From: Micromonospora eburnea
GTDB lineage: Bacteria; Actinomycetota; Actinomycetes; Mycobacteriales; Micromonosporaceae
Direction: 5' to 3'
Assembly (NCBI RefSeq): GCF_900090225.1
Contig: NZ_FMHY01000002.1
Location: 1,364,001-1,428,000, forward strand
DNA length: 64,000 nucleotides
The notes under the pieces are model-generated. The model was not told the origin of the DNA, did not search any database, and saw only the letters and a program-made list of their open reading frames with translations. The translations under genes were made by a program, and so were the position numbers. Positions within the stretch are counted from its first letter, which is position 1, and each line of letters opens with the position of its first letter. Shown piece after piece: positions 12,993-33,061 of this stretch.

Positions 12993-13886
12993 GTGCCGGG
13001 TGTGCGGACCTTTCTGCGACGGGCCGGCACGGCCCTTAACGCCCTGCTGCTCGTGATTCCGGCGACCGCCCCGCTCGGCGTCCCGCCTCTCGTGGTCCCG
13101 GCGATCGGCCGTGTCGTCGTCTCGCCCCTCGTGGTCCCGGCGGCCGCCCAGGTCGTCGTCTCGCCTCTCGTGGTGCCGGCGATCGGCCGGGTCGTCGTCT
13201 CGCCTCGATCCGGCGTGGCCGTCCGCTCGGCGGCTCCCGTCCATACCCCGGTGTCGTCGGCGTCGGCCCCGGGGCGGGCGGCGACTGCTGCGGAGCCGCT
13301 CCCGCTCGGCCCGCCGCCGATCGATCTGCACGAGTCGGTGACCATCTCCGGCGGCGCGAGAGCAGCCGCGGCGGCGGCCGTCGAACCCCAGCCGCGGTTC
13401 GGCTGGCCTCTGGCCGGCACGCCCCGCCCGGCACGCCGGTTCGACCCGCCGCCGCAGCCGTGGCTGCCCGGCCACCGGGGCGTCGATCTGGCCGCCACGC
13501 CGGGCGTCGAGGTCCGCGCCGCCGGCACCGGGATCGTCCTCTTCGCGGGCCTGGTGGCCGGGCGTCCGGTGATGACCATCGGGCACGCCGACGGGCTACG
13601 CACCACCTACGAACCGGTACGCCCCGGGCTGCCGGTCGGCGCCCAGGTCACGGCCGGCACCCCGATCGGCGTGCTCCTCGCCGGCCATCCGGGCTGCCTG
13701 ACCGAGGCGTGCCTGCATTGGGGGCTGCGCCGGGGCGAGGAGTACCTGGACCCGCTCACCCTGCTCGGCCTCGGCGCGGTCCGGCTCCTTCCGCTCGACG
13801 TCCCGGCCGTCGATGCCGCTCAGCCCTGGGCGAGCAGCACGGGCAGGCGGACGGCCAGCCGGTCGTACTCGTCCGGGGTGTTGTAG
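12993..13886 (+). CDS. Secreted M23 family peptidase (LytM-like)
   Basis: This peptidoglycan-hydrolase-type protein has an N-terminal signal/anchor (FLRRAGTALNALLLVIPATAPLG), three tandem 13-residue repeats PLVVPAxxxVVVS, a low-complexity Ala/Pro linker and a C-terminal M23 domain. The first zinc ligands are in GHRGVDLA; the second motif reads CLHWGLR, where the first His of the usual HxH is Cys, as I recall for actinobacterial relatives. Starts GTG 12993 or GTG 13002 are both possible. The last 67 bases overlap the convergent aminotransferase gene. In mycobacteria the homologue lies beside rpsB; here it is 7.5 kb away, in keeping with an inversion. Confidence 0.87.
   Translation: MPGVRTFLRRAGTALNALLLVIPATAPLGVPPLVVPAIGRVVVSPLVVPAAAQVVVSPLVVPAIGRVVVSPRSGVAVRSAAPVHTPVSSASAPGRAATAAEPLPLGPPPIDLHESVTISGGARAAAAAAVEPQPRFGWPLAGTPRPARRFDPPPQPWLPGHRGVDLAATPGVEVRAAGTGIVLFAGLVAGRPVMTIGHADGLRTTYEPVRPGLPVGAQVTAGTPIGVLLAGHPGCLTEACLHWGLRRGEEYLDPLTLLGLGAVRLLPLDVPAVDAAQPWASSTGRRTASRSYSSGVL
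13086..13202 (+). repeat. Three tandem 39-bp repeats inside the M23 gene
   Basis: Units 13086-13124, 13125-13163 and 13164-13202 each encode PLVV-P-A-three variable-VVVS (13 residues). They are in frame, so copy number change would keep the reading frame. The hydrophobic repeats extend the region just after the signal segment. Confidence 0.9.
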
Positions 13887-16397: not shown

Positions 16398-17618
16398 TCA
16401 TGGTCCGGCCTTCGGGGTGCCACCCTTCGCGCCTGGTGGGGCGAGTGCGTAGCCGTCGTCCCGGCGGATCACCAGGGCCAGCTCCTCCAACATGGACAGC
16501 TTGCGCATGGCGGTACGCAGATCCACCCCGGCGCGGGCCGCGACGCTGTCCAGGGCCAGCGCCTTGCGCCGGGGCAGCGCCTCCAGCACCTGGACCGTCT
16601 CGTCGTCGAGCCGGTCCCGGAGCCGTTCTGGTGCCCGGACGGGCGGGGCCAGGTCGTCGCCGATCCGCCCCACCTCCTCCAGCACGTGTGCCACGCCGGT
16701 GACCAGCCGGGCCCTGGGCTGCTCGCGCAGCAGCTCGTGCGCGCCCACCGACATCGCCGAGGTGACCGGGCCCGGCACCACCATGCCCGGTCGACCGACC
16801 CCGATCGCCCGGTTCAGGGTCTGGGTGGCACCACTGCGGGCCGCCGCCTCCACCAGCACCGTCCCGAGCGTGCCGGCCGCGATGACCCGGTTGCGAATGA
16901 GGAACCGGGGCCGCAGCGGGTCGGCGCCCGGCAGCCATTCGCTGACCAACAGGCCGGTCTCCGCTATCCGGTCGAAGAGCGCCGCGTTGCCCATCGGATA
17001 CGGGCGGTCCACCCCGCAGGCCAACACGGCGACGGTGAGCCCGCCGGCGGTCAACGCGCCCCGGTGCGCGGCGGAGTCGATGCCGAAGGCGCCACCGGAG
17101 ACCACCGTCCAGCCCCGGTCGGCCAGCCCGTAGCCGAGTTCGGTGGCGACGTGCGTCCCGTACGGGGTTGCGGCCCGCGCACCGACGACGGCGACGGAGC
17201 GGTCGAGCGCCTCCCCGAGTGGCCAGGCGCCACGTACCCAAAAGCAGAGCGGCGGCGCGGTCTCCAGGTCGACCCGGCGTTCGGCCCCGGGCAGCACCAG
17301 CCTGCGCAGGTGCGCGACCCGGGCCGGCCACTCGTCGTCCTCGGGGGTGACCACCCGCGCGCCGAGCCGCTCGGTGCGCGCCAGGGCCTGCTCCGCCACC
17401 GCCCTGGCGTCGCCACCGGCCGAGCGGGCGGCCACCCCGGACCGGAGCGCCCGGTCCGGAGCGCCACCGTCGAGCAGCAGGTCCAGCGTGGCGACCGGGC
17501 CGAGCTGGTCGACCAGCCGGTGCACCGACCAGGTCCCCGGCTCGGTCAGCCAGGTCAGGGCCACTCGCGCCAGCCGCCGGTCCGTCATCGCGCTGGACTT
17601 CTCGCTGCGCTCGCTCAT
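16398..17618 (-). CDS. dprA: DNA-processing protein DprA
   Basis: DprA binds incoming single-stranded DNA and loads RecA. The Rossmann core is clear (VAVVGARAATPYGTHVA, VVSGGAFGIDSAAHRGAL, FLIRNRVIAAGTLGTVLVEA), followed by a winged-helix tail (VAARAGVDLRTAMRKLSMLEEL). Two starts are possible. ATG 17618 gives MSERSEKSSA and overlaps the stop of an upstream tiny frame by four bases; ATG 17588 gives MTDRRLARVAL, where family similarity begins. The first eight codons of the longer form come from the 80-bp repeat described separately. Confidence 0.93.
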   Translation of the reverse strand: MSERSEKSSAMTDRRLARVALTWLTEPGTWSVHRLVDQLGPVATLDLLLDGGAPDRALRSGVAARSAGGDARAVAEQALARTERLGARVVTPEDDEWPARVAHLRRLVLPGAERRVDLETAPPLCFWVRGAWPLGEALDRSVAVVGARAATPYGTHVATELGYGLADRGWTVVSGGAFGIDSAAHRGALTAGGLTVAVLACGVDRPYPMGNAALFDRIAETGLLVSEWLPGADPLRPRFLIRNRVIAAGTLGTVLVEAAARSGATQTLNRAIGVGRPGMVVPGPVTSAMSVGAHELLREQPRARLVTGVAHVLEEVGRIGDDLAPPVRAPERLRDRLDDETVQVLEALPRRKALALDSVAARAGVDLRTAMRKLSMLEELALVIRRDDGYALAPPGAKGGTPKAGP

Positions 17619-17698
17619 GCCGGCACTTCGCTTCGCTTCGTGCCGTCATGAGGCACCATGGCGCTGGACCTGATGATTCGCTCGCTGCGCTCGCTCAT
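17615..17698 (-). CDS. Repeat-derived micro-frame, 27 codons, coupled to dprA
   Basis: The frame reads MSERSERIIRSSA..., ending SEVPA and TGA. Its ATG overlaps the previous micro-frame stop and its TGA overlaps the dprA ATG 17618, both as ATGA. No Shine-Dalgarno is visible, so translation would depend on coupling. Whether the peptide has a function is unknown; it could serve only to carry ribosomes from comM to dprA. Confidence 0.45.
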   Translation of the reverse strand: MSERSERIIRSSAMVPHDGTKRSEVPA

Positions 17699-17769
17699 GC
17701 CGGCACTCCGCTTCGCTTCGTACCGTCATGAGGCACCACGGCGCTGGACCTGATGATTCGCTCGCTCAT
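17695..17769 (-). CDS. Repeat-derived micro-frame, 24 codons, coupled to comM
   Basis: The frame reads MSERIIRSSAVVPHDG..., ending SGVPA and TGA. Its ATG (17769) overlaps the comM stop (17766-17768) as ATGA. It is nearly identical in sequence to the next micro-frame but lacks the internal SER duplication. It was probably produced by duplication of the repeat unit. Confidence 0.45.
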   Translation of the reverse strand: MSERIIRSSAVVPHDGTKRSGVPA

Positions 17770-19286
17770 GTGCCCTCTCCTGTCCTGAGCTGGATGGCCT
17801 CCGCTATGTCCCCGCCGTCCGGGCGATCCCGCCCATCCAGGTCGGCGATGCTCCAGGCGAGTCGGATGACCCGATCGAACCCACGGGCGGAGAGCGAACC
17901 GGAGTCGAGCCGCCTGCGCAGCTCGTGGGTGTCCCGCCCGGGCAGCCGCCAAGGCGGGCGGCGCAGGTGCGGGCCGGGGATCTCGGCGTTCACCCGCCGG
18001 CCGGTGGACGCCCACCGGTCGGCGGCGGCCCGGCGTGCGGCGGCGACCCGGGCGGCCACCGTCTGGGACGACTCGTTCGGGGTGCCCGTCTCCAGCAACT
18101 CCGCCGCCCGTACGGGCAGCAGCCGGACCTGCACGTCGACCCGGTCGAGCAGCGGCCCGGAAAGCCGACCCAGGTAGCGCCGCCGAGCCAGCGGAGTGCA
18201 CTCACAGTCCGCGTCGCCGGAGGGCTTCGCGCACGGGCAGGGGTTGGCGGCCAGCACCAGTTGCGTGCGGGCCGGGTATTCCGTGGCGCCCCGGGTCCGG
18301 GCGACCCGTACCCGGCCGCTCTCCAGTGGCTGGCGCAGCGCCTCCAGCGCCCCCTTGCTGAATTCGGGCGCCTCGTCGAGGAAGAGCACCCCGCGATGGG
18401 CCAGCGACACCGCGCCGGGCCGGGCGAGCCCCGAACCGCCGCCGACCAGGGCGGGGACCGTGGCGGTGTGGTGCGGTGCCTGGAACGGCGGCCGGCGTAG
18501 CAGCCGCCCGCCGGGCGGCAGGAGCCCGGCGATGGAGTGCAGGGCGGTGACCTCCAGCGCGGCGTCGTCGTCGAGTTCCGGCAGGATCGACGGAAGACGC
18601 TCGGCGAGCATGGTCTTGCCGGCCCCCGGAGGCCCGAGCAGCGCCAGATGGTGCCCGCCTGCCGCGGCCACCTCCAGCGCCCGCCGGCCGAGCAGCTGCC
18701 CGGCCACCTCGGCGAGGTCCGGACCGTCCTCGTCGGAGGTCGGCGCGAACGCCGGCGGCGGGAGCAACGGCGAACCGTCCCGGACGAAGGCGACCAGCCG
18801 GTGCAGGTTGTCGACCGCGCGTACCTGGACGCCGGGGATCACTGACGCCTCGGCGGCGTTGCCGGCCGGCACCACCACCCGCGGGAAACCGGCTCGGGCC
18901 GCGGCGGCGACCATCGGCAGCACACCCCGTACCGGGCGGACCGTGCCGTCCAGGCCGAGCTCGCCGAGGATCACCGTCCGCTCCAACGGCAACAGCGGTA
19001 GTTCACCCGAGCCGCCGAGCACCGCCGCCGCGATGGCCAGGTCGAACGCGGATCCGTACTTCGGCAGGGTGGCCGGGAGTAGATTGAGGGTGATCCGCCG
19101 GTTCGGCCACTTCTGGCCGGAGTTGACGATGGCCGCGCGGACCCGGTCCCGGGCCTCGTGCAGGGCCGTGTCGGGCAGGCCGGAGATCGCGACACCCGGC
19201 AGCCCGGGTGCCAGATCGGCCTCCACCTCCACCACGTGCCCGGCCACTCCGACCAGGCCCACGGAGAGCACCTTGGCGTAGCTCAT
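17766..19286 (-). CDS. comM: YifB/ComM family Mg-chelatase-like AAA+ ATPase
   Basis: A 506-residue AAA+ protein of the ComM group, which promotes branch migration during natural transformation in other bacteria. It has the N-terminal Lon-like domain (GLPGVAISGLPDTALHEARDR), Walker A LLGPPGAGKTML, Walker B GVLFLDEAPEF, and a cysteine cluster NPCPCAKPSGDADCEC. ATG 19286 lies two bases after the yraN stop codon, so they form one operon with dprA and perhaps xerC. Confidence 0.93.
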   Translation of the reverse strand: MSYAKVLSVGLVGVAGHVVEVEADLAPGLPGVAISGLPDTALHEARDRVRAAIVNSGQKWPNRRITLNLLPATLPKYGSAFDLAIAAAVLGGSGELPLLPLERTVILGELGLDGTVRPVRGVLPMVAAAARAGFPRVVVPAGNAAEASVIPGVQVRAVDNLHRLVAFVRDGSPLLPPPAFAPTSDEDGPDLAEVAGQLLGRRALEVAAAGGHHLALLGPPGAGKTMLAERLPSILPELDDDAALEVTALHSIAGLLPPGGRLLRRPPFQAPHHTATVPALVGGGSGLARPGAVSLAHRGVLFLDEAPEFSKGALEALRQPLESGRVRVARTRGATEYPARTQLVLAANPCPCAKPSGDADCECTPLARRRYLGRLSGPLLDRVDVQVRLLPVRAAELLETGTPNESSQTVAARVAAARRAAADRWASTGRRVNAEIPGPHLRRPPWRLPGRDTHELRRRLDSGSLSARGFDRVIRLAWSIADLDGRDRPDGGDIAEAIQLRTGEGT

Positions 19287-19891: not shown

Positions 19892-21034
19892 GTGCCGATC
19901 GTGGACGGACGACGGAGCTTTCCCGAGGATCAACGGGGGTCGCACTGGAACGACCCCGGATACGCCGAGCCGGACTGGCGCGCCGCCAGTGAGCCGCGCT
20001 ACCGCGACGACGACTACCCTGCCCCGGAGCAGCGCACCGGCGGCGAGACCCGGTACGGCGAGCCGGGACGGTTCGGCGCGGTCGATCCGCTGGGCGACGA
20101 CACCGAGAGCTACCGGGGATCGCGACGGCTGGGCGACCCGGAGATCTCCGGAGAACTGCCGGGCGAGCGCGGCGGCCGCCGGGCGGCGCGCGAGACCGGC
20201 GATCTCGGCGGGGACGTACGCGAGAGCGCGGCCGACCCGCTCGGCCTGGACCGTACGGGCGACGTGCTGCGTCCGAGCCCGCTGGCCGGATATCCGATCG
20301 TCGAGCCCGCCCAGCCGGCCGAACCGGCCGTCGCGGCCCCGGTGTTGCTGACCGTCGGGGATCGGCCGGCGCACGGCATGTCCACACCGCTGACGGTCGA
20401 GGATCGGCCGGCGCATGGCAGCCCCGCACCGCTGGCGGTCGGGGATCGGCCGGCGCATGGCGGTCCCGCACCGCTGGCGGTCGGGGATCGGCCGGCGCAT
20501 GGCGGTCCCGCACCGCTGGCGGTCGGGGATCGGCCGGCGCATGGCGGTCCCGCACCGCTGACGGTCGGGGATCGGCCGGCGCACGGCATGCCCACGCCGC
20601 TGACCGTCGGGGAGCGGCCCGCCGCGCCCGGGAGCGAGGCGGTGAGCGGCCCCGCGCCGCACCCGTTGGACCTGCCGACCGGCCCGATGCCCGCGGTCGC
20701 GCCCCGGCTGGACGGTCCGCCGCCCGGGGACGGCGTCTACCGGACCCGCCGGCCGGCGCTCGCGGTGCTGCTGGCATTGCTGGTGCTGGTCCTGGAGGTC
20801 CCGGCGCTGCGGGTGCTCCTGCGCGGCCTGGTGGGCGATCCGGTCTCGACCTCGCACGTCGTGGTGGGCTCGTTCCTCGTGCTGGGGCTGCCGATCTTCG
20901 GCACGGGGCTGTACGGGCTGCGTACCGGCGGGCTGGCGCTCGCCGACGGCAGCCGTGGCTGGCTCCGGCCGCCGACGGCGTACCTCACGGTCGGGCTCGT
21001 GCTCTTCGTCGCGGCGGCGATCGCCGCCCGCTGA
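19892..21034 (+). CDS. Hypothetical membrane protein with 14-residue tandem repeats
   Basis: I do not recognise a family. The 380-residue product has a charged, disordered N-terminal third (Asp/Arg/Tyr/Glu-rich), about seven near-identical 14-residue repeats [14 protein letters not shown] (residues ~152-245), a Pro-rich linker and three C-terminal membrane segments ([51 protein letters not shown]). It is likely an integral membrane protein with a long cytoplasmic repeat arm. GTG 19892 or GTG 19901 are possible starts. It lies between yraN and rpsB, at the other edge of the inverted segment. Confidence 0.75.
20345..20626 (+). repeat. 42-bp in-frame tandem repeat, about seven units
   Basis: Full units start at 20345, 20387, 20429, 20471, 20513 and 20555, with a partial unit at 20597. 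Units 3-5 are nearly identical at the DNA level (ccgctggcggtcggggatcg start), the outer units have diverged. This is the pattern of recent unit duplication and a likely variable-number locus. Confidence 0.92.
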
Positions 21035-27870: not shown

Positions 27871-29094
27871 GTGGCGAGTCAGGGTCAGCGTTTCCGGCGT
27901 AAGGCGCTTCGCCGGGGATACAAGGTCGACGAGGTGGACGCCTTCCTGGACCGGGTGGAGGCCACCCTCGCCGGTCAGCCGGTCGGCGCGCCCGTCGCCT
28001 CCCAGGAGGTCCACGACGTCGTCTTCCGGGTCCGGTTCAACGGCTACGACGAGTGGCAGGTCGACCTGCACCTCGACCGGGTGGAGCGGCAGCTGGCCGA
28101 GCTGGAGGAGCGGGGCGGCGTGCCGGGCGGGCGCGGTGCCGATCCCCGGATGGCCGACCGGCACGGACCGCCGATGCGCGACGACCGCGGCCTCTCGCCC
28201 GTGCCGCAGCCGCCGATGCCGCCCCGATCGATGCCCGCGCAGGCCGGCCCGCCCGTTGACCGTTACGGCAACCGCTACGACGACCCGACCGCCGGCAACC
28301 GCTACGACGACCCGGTCCCCGGTGGCCGTTACGACGAGCCGGTCCCCGGCAACCGTTACGACGAGCCGGCCCCCGGCGGCCGGTACGACGACCCGGCCGG
28401 TGGTGGCCGTTACGACGAGCCGACGGGTGCCTTCGCCGGCGGGTACGACGGCCCGCGCGGCGGGTACGACGCGCCCCGCGGCCCGGGCGGACCCGGTCCG
28501 ATGGGGCCGGGCGCCCCGATGGGTCCGGGTGCCCCGATGGGGCACGGCGCTCCGCCGCCCCGCGGCCTGCCCCCGGGGCCGGGCGGCTACGGCCCCGATG
28601 ACCGGTTCGACGGTTTCGAGGCCGGTCGGCGTGGCCGCCCCGACATGACGGCCGAGATCCGGATGCCCGAGCGGGATCTGCGTGACCTGCGTGGCCGTGG
28701 TCCGGCCGGCCCGCCTCCCGTGCCCCAGCAGGGTTTCGGAGGCCCGCCGCCGATGGCCGGTCCGCCGATGGGCGGCCCACCCGCCGGTGGCCCGCCGATG
28801 GGTGGCCCGCCGATGGGTGGCCCGCCGATGGCCGGCCCGCCCGGCAGCGACCTCTACCGGGTGGACCAGATCCGCCGCAGCTTCCAGGTGCGCCGCTTCG
28901 GCAGCGGGTACGACCCGGACCAGGTCGACCGGTTCTTCGACACCCTGCTCGGCGGCATGCAGGGCCGCAACCCGATGCCGGTGAACCCGAAGGAACTGGA
29001 CACCCTGCGCTTCGGGCTGGTGCCCGGCGGCTACTTCGAGGCCGAGGTCGACGCCGCGCTCAAGGACGTGCAGGACATCCTGCTCGGCCACTGA
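27871..29094 (+). CDS. DivIVA-domain protein with two domain copies and repetitive linker
   Basis: The first ~60 residues (FRRKALRRGYKVDEVDAFLDRVEATL) form a DivIVA-type membrane-curvature/polar-targeting helix, and a second related motif lies at the C-terminus (SFQVRRFGSGYDPDQVDRFFDTLL). The middle ~230 residues are low complexity: 9-residue RYDEPVPGN/RYDDPxxGG repeats, GAPMGPGAPMG and PPMGGPP repeats. Such proteins organise polar growth or division in actinobacteria. GTG 27871 follows AGGAG. It is 31 bp downstream of rlmN and ends at a perfect 16-bp terminator. 407 residues. Confidence 0.88.
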   Translation: MASQGQRFRRKALRRGYKVDEVDAFLDRVEATLAGQPVGAPVASQEVHDVVFRVRFNGYDEWQVDLHLDRVERQLAELEERGGVPGGRGADPRMADRHGPPMRDDRGLSPVPQPPMPPRSMPAQAGPPVDRYGNRYDDPTAGNRYDDPVPGGRYDEPVPGNRYDEPAPGGRYDDPAGGGRYDEPTGAFAGGYDGPRGGYDAPRGPGGPGPMGPGAPMGPGAPMGHGAPPPRGLPPGPGGYGPDDRFDGFEAGRRGRPDMTAEIRMPERDLRDLRGRGPAGPPPVPQQGFGGPPPMAGPPMGGPPAGGPPMGGPPMGGPPMAGPPGSDLYRVDQIRRSFQVRRFGSGYDPDQVDRFFDTLLGGMQGRNPMPVNPKELDTLRFGLVPGGYFEAEVDAALKDVQDILLGH

Positions 29095-33035: not shown

Positions 33036-33061
33036 GCGGCCACCTCGCTTCGCTCGCTCAT
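33032..33061 (-). CDS. Nine-codon MSERSE-type micro-frame before the oxidoreductase
   Basis: The frame reads MSERSEVAA and TGA. The TGA overlaps the ATG of the following gene (ATGA), as in the comM-dprA junction. It begins eleven bases after the TetR gene stop and has no RBS. It may only be a remnant of a repeat element. Confidence 0.4.
   Translation of the reverse strand: MSERSEVAA

Follow-up and report, generated by a model that had tools for sequence, protein, structure and literature searches.

The short stretch that joins comM to dprA in Micromonospora eburnea is very probably built from copies of a small, non-autonomous mobile element of the MIRU type, which inserts at the RTGA tetranucleotides that start genes and would relay ribosomes through short frames of its own. 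The comparisons below, drawn from the sequence of the junction and of its relatives, support reading the comM-dprA repeat as a coupling device whose units would be translated.

The comM-dprA junction

The window analysed here is the whole stretch of 64,000 nucleotides from contig NZ_FMHY01000002.1 (positions 1,364,001 to 1,428,000). Its relevant features are as follows.

17769..19286, minus strand: coding part of comM without its stop, 506 amino acids (19286-17766 including the stop)
17699..17769, minus strand: repeat unit 1, 71 bp, from ATGA 17769 to ATGA 17698, with a 24-amino-acid frame, MSERIIRSSAVVPHDGTKRSGVPA
about 17731-17695, minus strand: 3' hairpin of unit 1, the equivalent of that in unit 2
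17619..17698, minus strand: repeat unit 2, 80 bp, from ATGA 17698 to ATGA 17618, with a 27-amino-acid frame, MSERSERIIRSSAMVPHDGTKRSEVPA
17615..17651, minus strand: 3' hairpin of unit 2, TCATGACGGCAC...GTGCCGGCATGA, its 3' arm holding the downstream ATG (from a fold of the region and covariation in the family)
17589..17618, minus strand: partial third repeat copy, open into dprA and giving the N-terminal extension MSERSEKSSA before the internal ATG 17588
16398..17618, minus strand: dprA, 406 amino acids from ATG 17618, or 396 from the alternative start 17588
33036..33061, minus strand: second copy in the window, 26 bp, internally deleted (MSERSEVAA*), ending at the ATGA 33035 that opens the next gene

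Pfam identifies comM as a Mg-chelatase-type ComM gene (PF01078, E 5e-82) with the domains Mg_chelatase, ChlI and Mg_chelatase_C, and finds the DprA domain (PF02481, E 9e-58) in the product of dprA. Three ATGA overlaps, at 17769, 17698 and 17618, link the comM stop, two short frames and the dprA frame. The comM stop (TGA 17768-17766) overlaps the first repeat ATG (17769-17767, minus strand). The 24 codons of unit 1, which is 71 bp long through a 9-bp deletion close to its start, end in TGA 17697-17695, overlapping ATG 17698. The 27 codons of unit 2 end in TGA 17617-17615, overlapping ATG 17618 of the dprA frame. A tandem search finds the repeat at 17601-17766 with a period of about 80 bp (2.1 copies, 96% matches, score 311); this search and a re-reading of the frames confirm the original prediction of a stop/start chain, derived from an 80-bp repeat, that runs from comM through 24 and then 27 codons to dprA. 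Other tandem repeats in the window lie at 20347-20619 (42-bp period), 13050-13206 (39) and 28272-28422 (27).

The last link of the chain depends, of course, on where dprA starts. Were translation to begin at the internal ATG 17588, the final overlap at 17618 would go unused. The protein begun there, MTDRRLARV, resembles the N-termini of relatives, which are 9-12 residues long and end in a conserved LAR(V/I)A motif, and a weak purine stretch, GAGAAG, lies upstream of this ATG. However, relatives start dprA at the codon that overlaps the comM stop, the frame from 17618 to 17588 is open, and N-terminal remnant extensions opening from an RTGA recur elsewhere (at L052, L251, L271 and L276). We regard the internal start as unlikely, though a serious contender. 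With the start at 17618, the DprA N-terminus MSERSEKSSAMTDRR is a fused, in-frame remnant of the repeat.

Empty and filled sites

Related genomes have the junction in several states. At comM-dprA, 26 of 30 genomes of the genus have a bare overlap and no repeat, with the comM TGA lying inside the RTGA that opens dprA; units are present in three (this genome, L052 and L054), and the 30th genome (L061) is unscored, its comM match being truncated. The states across genomes are empty, two or three units, and one unit plus an in-frame fusion. The units in L052 and L054 are older and strongly decayed, with the chain unbroken or fused in frame to dprA: L054 has a chain of 62, 95 and 59 bp, and in L052, where ACGA stands in place of the last ATGA, the second unit's frame is fused to DprA.

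The gatC-gatA junction provides a fuller series. Its empty site is again a bare overlap. Twelve genomes carry repeat units there, as one, two or three units at +80, +160 or +240; unit lengths of 65, 74, 80 and 131 occur, and every chain is unbroken with each. Some copies, including those at gatC-gatA, are held by inheritance. The prediction that units could be gained or lost with coupling intact is borne out by this series of zero, one, two or three units by species, and at comM-dprA and gatC-gatA a search for the refuting case, a number of units or an insertion that disrupts coupling, found none.

At trpB-trpA, the genes at the empty site are a few bases apart, and the filled site has the repeat on trpA's own RTGA start. 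The insertion target is thus the start codon, not the overlap as such. At some other sites no upstream gene overlaps the first RTGA, so the first unit there must start by itself.

Forty-one sites were inspected within this genome, and 40 of them run from RTGA to RTGA in frame and end exactly on the start of the downstream gene (the count leaves out two weak model matches, at 568933 and 2606967). The sole exception, L343, does not keep the frame; L347, one of the 40, has a first tetranucleotide decayed to ATGC. The units at L018 and L019 measure 80 and 80 bp at each site. That at L023 is 74 bp, a 98-bp reading beginning at an upstream GTGA. From their N-terminal sequences we take the downstream genes to include gatA, trpA, ribBA, ilvH, ABC-transporter genes and an NRPS gene. 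At L017 (near C2:3853585), two units join what appear to be two NRPS genes, and natural-product assembly lines may use the relay. The gene opened by ATGA 33035, behind the second copy in the window, is presumably an FAD-dependent oxidoreductase, which its N-terminus resembles. Old copies also persist as in-frame N-terminal extensions, as in L251 (MSELTGKSDL), L271 and L276 (MSERTSRIG).

RTGA is, of course, a frequent tetranucleotide, occurring 669 times in the window on both strands, and the repeat might contain ATGA by accident, in which case the coupling would be a matter of chance. Yet 40 of 41 inspected sites end in frame exactly on a gene start, and the empty sites place the insertion point at the native start. 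Chance has next to no prospect of accounting for this. The original prediction had kept accidental coupling as its alternative; it is rejected by the bare comM/dprA overlap in 26 of 30 relatives and by a repeat that stands, across the family, nearly always in one register to gene starts.

Distribution of the repeat

With the 166-bp comM-dprA tandem as query, 21 matches were found in this genome, and matches were found in 23 of 24 other genomes sampled from the genus. In the family, 135 of 201 genomes match a consensus unit; they represent 30 of the 44 genera sampled. A covariance model built from 22 units gives 59 matches in this genome at E <= 0.01; the best of them, at 102.5 bits, is unit 2 of comM-dprA. 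Tandem arrays hold one to six units per site.

The host of the repeat here is a member of the Micromonosporaceae, a placement that agrees with its gene content, and not a Mycobacterium. When 200 genomes sampled across the order were searched with the same model, diverged versions turned up in at least seven further families. One genome from another family (G305) has 37 matches at E <= 1e-4. These copies are visible by profile only, because DNA-level BLAST showed none in 16 genomes of other families. Diverged versions of 62-89 bp in other families of the order were noted at L328 and L351-L379; that at L376 lies before what appears to be a YebC-type gene. A covariance-model search of positions 17300-18000 matched no Rfam family up to E 1.

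Conservation of frame but not of peptide

A family-wide parse covered 97 sites and 135 scored units. The spacing between successive RTGA is 80 in 125 units, 77 in six, 71 in two, and 74 and 59 in one each; it is 2 mod 3 in all 135. Because an RTGA anchor could lie up to 4 bases from a model end, units of 79 or 81 bp would not have been missed. All 135 units read through the coupled frame without interruption as far as its terminal TGA; the +2 sense frame is open in 83 and the +1 frame in none.

Indels tell the same story. The 121 distinct units reduce to 12 gap signatures, all of them 2 mod 3. In 67 of the 69 cases where column 12 has gained a base, column 29 has lost one, and the reverse holds in 46 of 52 (67 vs 2, Fisher p 3e-24, the events not all being independent). 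Since the copies share ancestry, such counts are not independent, and the number of signatures is the safer, if still rough, count of events. Because the insertion at column 12 accompanies the deletion at column 29, the segment between them is read in two frames: the same DNA gives SERIIR in one subtype and QRANHQ in another. What is kept is thus the frame, not the peptide.

This bears on the possibility that the small peptides are themselves functional, for example as regulatory leader peptides spread by the repeat. As such a function would have it, every unit keeps its frame open, and conservation is high over the 5' part, TGAGCGAGCG.AGCGAGCGAA. However, the main and minor subtypes read the same middle DNA differently, and unit lengths vary freely in threes. 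Functional peptides are therefore very improbable.

A second possibility is that the repeat has no protein-level role and is kept at gene starts for its 3' ribosome-binding site and start codon, the upstream frames being a by-product. Many units do end in a sequence like GAGGTGGCGGCATGA or one bearing GGAG, and matches of 4 or more to the anti-Shine-Dalgarno complement occur more often than random 15-mers would give; most of the Shine-Dalgarno-like runs before the terminal start are no longer than 4 nt. A ribosome-binding site alone, however, sets no constraint on length, yet every unit is 2 mod 3 and its indels compensate. Decayed copies of 38, 59, 62, 65, 95 and 131 bp likewise keep the chain. 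We consider this explanation improbable, if less so than functional peptides, and favor a frame that serves the passage of ribosomes. Among the order-wide relatives, 31 of 33 units are 2 mod 3 and 30 of 33 are in frame; a few copies outside the family are out of frame.

A hairpin over the downstream start

The last 37 bases of the unit fold into a hairpin whose stem pairs TCAYG with CRTGA and so takes in the start codon of the next frame. Across 22 diverse units, 94% of the cells pair. Double changes number 27, against 7.6 +/- 2.1 in shuffles, with slid controls far lower, and the covariation score is 0.375 against 0.159. Across 95 modules, the base that faces the R of the terminal RTGA varies together with it, from T-A to C-G: T-A occurs in 71, C-G in 9, T-G in 2 and G-A in 13. 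These A and G subfamilies may go back to shared ancestry and not to compensation that happened several times.

Filled sites also tend to begin and end with the same R, with 82 A/A, 6 G/G and 7 mixed (p 1.3e-5). This fits a duplication of the target RTGA or a guided targeting, with subfamily descent contributing. One copy in this genome (L025, near C2:6989061) has its hairpin loop inverted, TCGCTCCGCTC replacing GAGCGAAGCGA, which suggests flipping between the stem arms.

A form of translational coupling in which the upstream ribosome unfolds the RNA is reviewed in PMC12548453. The covarying hairpin fits this form, and would be expected to act in the same way here.

Relation to known repeats

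The closest likeness is to the mycobacterial MIRUs, which, in the passages of PMC12548453 that concern them, are apparently mobile, insert at start codons, and carry an ORF of their own coupled by a -4 nt overlap (Supply et al., 1997). The original prediction held a mobile coupling cassette to be a novel idea; on the account given in those passages, MIRUs had been so described in 1997 (PMC12548453). Both repeats are short, interspersed and often tandem, lie in the sense of the gene, and have a purine-rich 3' end. Both insert at an NTGA/RTGA start codon that commonly overlaps the preceding stop (here at comM-dprA, gatC-gatA and trpB-trpA), as far as that source describes the MIRU sites. Both have an internal small ORF coupled downstream by -4 nt, an architecture that the source reports for MIRUs and that reads the same way in 135 of 135 family units and at 40 of 41 sites here. 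The core GAGCGNAGCGA is common to the two, as is a core GAGCGAAGCGA.

The differences are in length, where most MIRU units have 50-54 bp, and some 76, as compared with 80 bp here; in the conserved 5' block TGAGCGAGCG.AGCGAGCGAATCA of this repeat, which MIRUs lack; and in strictness. Mycobacterial loci were fetched by a MIRU core pattern, whose matches fell almost only in Mycobacterium records; they display this same architecture, with units of 50-54 bp. A cruder anchoring there gives 76 spacings, of which 49 are 2 mod 3 and 45 keep the coupled frame, against 135 of 135 for this repeat. A profile search against the MIRU loci gave marginal matches (best E 0.27), 9 of 16 falling at MIRU cores and none in a reversed control; the covariance model was likewise marginal (best E 0.029). 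The repeat appears to work like a MIRU but is not filed as one, sequence homology to MIRUs being unproven.

Bicistronic-design leader ORFs used in biotechnology are a further parallel, in that ribosomes are brought by a short frame upstream to a start codon that structure would otherwise conceal (PMC12548453). Unlike those leaders, this repeat is natural, mobile and tandem.

The scattered positions of the copies, together with the empty sites, point to movement of the repeat. In being short, palindromic, interspersed, multicopy and apparently non-autonomous, it resembles the REP elements that go with RAYT (Y1/HUH) proteins; unlike them, it occupies start codons and not extragenic space, and it contains a coupled frame. 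The Y1 family PF01797 has no match in this genome and is sporadic in relatives, leaving a Y1/RAYT transposase unsupported as the present mobiliser. Plasmid and phage collections yielded no copies at the thresholds used, and hence no vehicle.

The palindromic elements of Rickettsia and Wolbachia also have a frame length compatible with coding sequence and are read through inside genes. Although palindromic and compatible with coding in the same way, the present repeat differs from them in making separate overlapping frames at gene starts, with N-terminal extensions arising only by decay.

A search of the open-access literature found no description of this repeat as a Micromonospora/Salinispora or order-wide family. 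Within that literature, the family, its strict conservation of frame, its covarying hairpin and its spread through the order seem undescribed. As a doubtful but conceivable extension, the repeat may belong to an old, order-wide family that seeks start codons, with MIRUs perhaps one diverged branch; the TCAY that pairs with RTGA in the mRNA hairpin might then also guide insertion as DNA.

A proposed mechanism and its significance

Taken together, the empty and filled sites indicate that the element inserts exactly at the RTGA that starts a gene, often where this overlaps the preceding stop. As read from its sequence, each 80-bp unit provides a start, a short frame (about 27 codons), purines resembling a Shine-Dalgarno sequence and, at its end, an RTGA at which the next unit or gene starts. 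A ribosome leaving comM would re-initiate on unit 1, then on unit 2, then on dprA. The hairpin, whose TCAY-RTGA pairing the covariation shows, would hide the downstream start unless an upstream ribosome opened it, and expression would thereby come to depend on the relay.

Because its length is conserved and its peptide is not, the most likely role of the small frame is to pass ribosomes along, which would allow the element to enter sites between or ahead of important genes without doing much harm. Copy number would change by tandem gain and loss. Old copies would decay by loss of a stop into in-frame N-terminal extensions, as appears to have happened in this dprA.

The repeat would explain the odd MSERSER-type N-termini, and the doubtful start annotations, in these genomes. 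It would extend a MIRU-like design from the mycobacteria to much of an order, and its junctions with no, one, two or three units are available ready-made for measuring coupling. Since frame length is kept while peptide sequence is not, the repeat gives evidence from nature, replicated many times over, of selection on translational coupling at stop-start overlaps in GC-rich actinomycetes.
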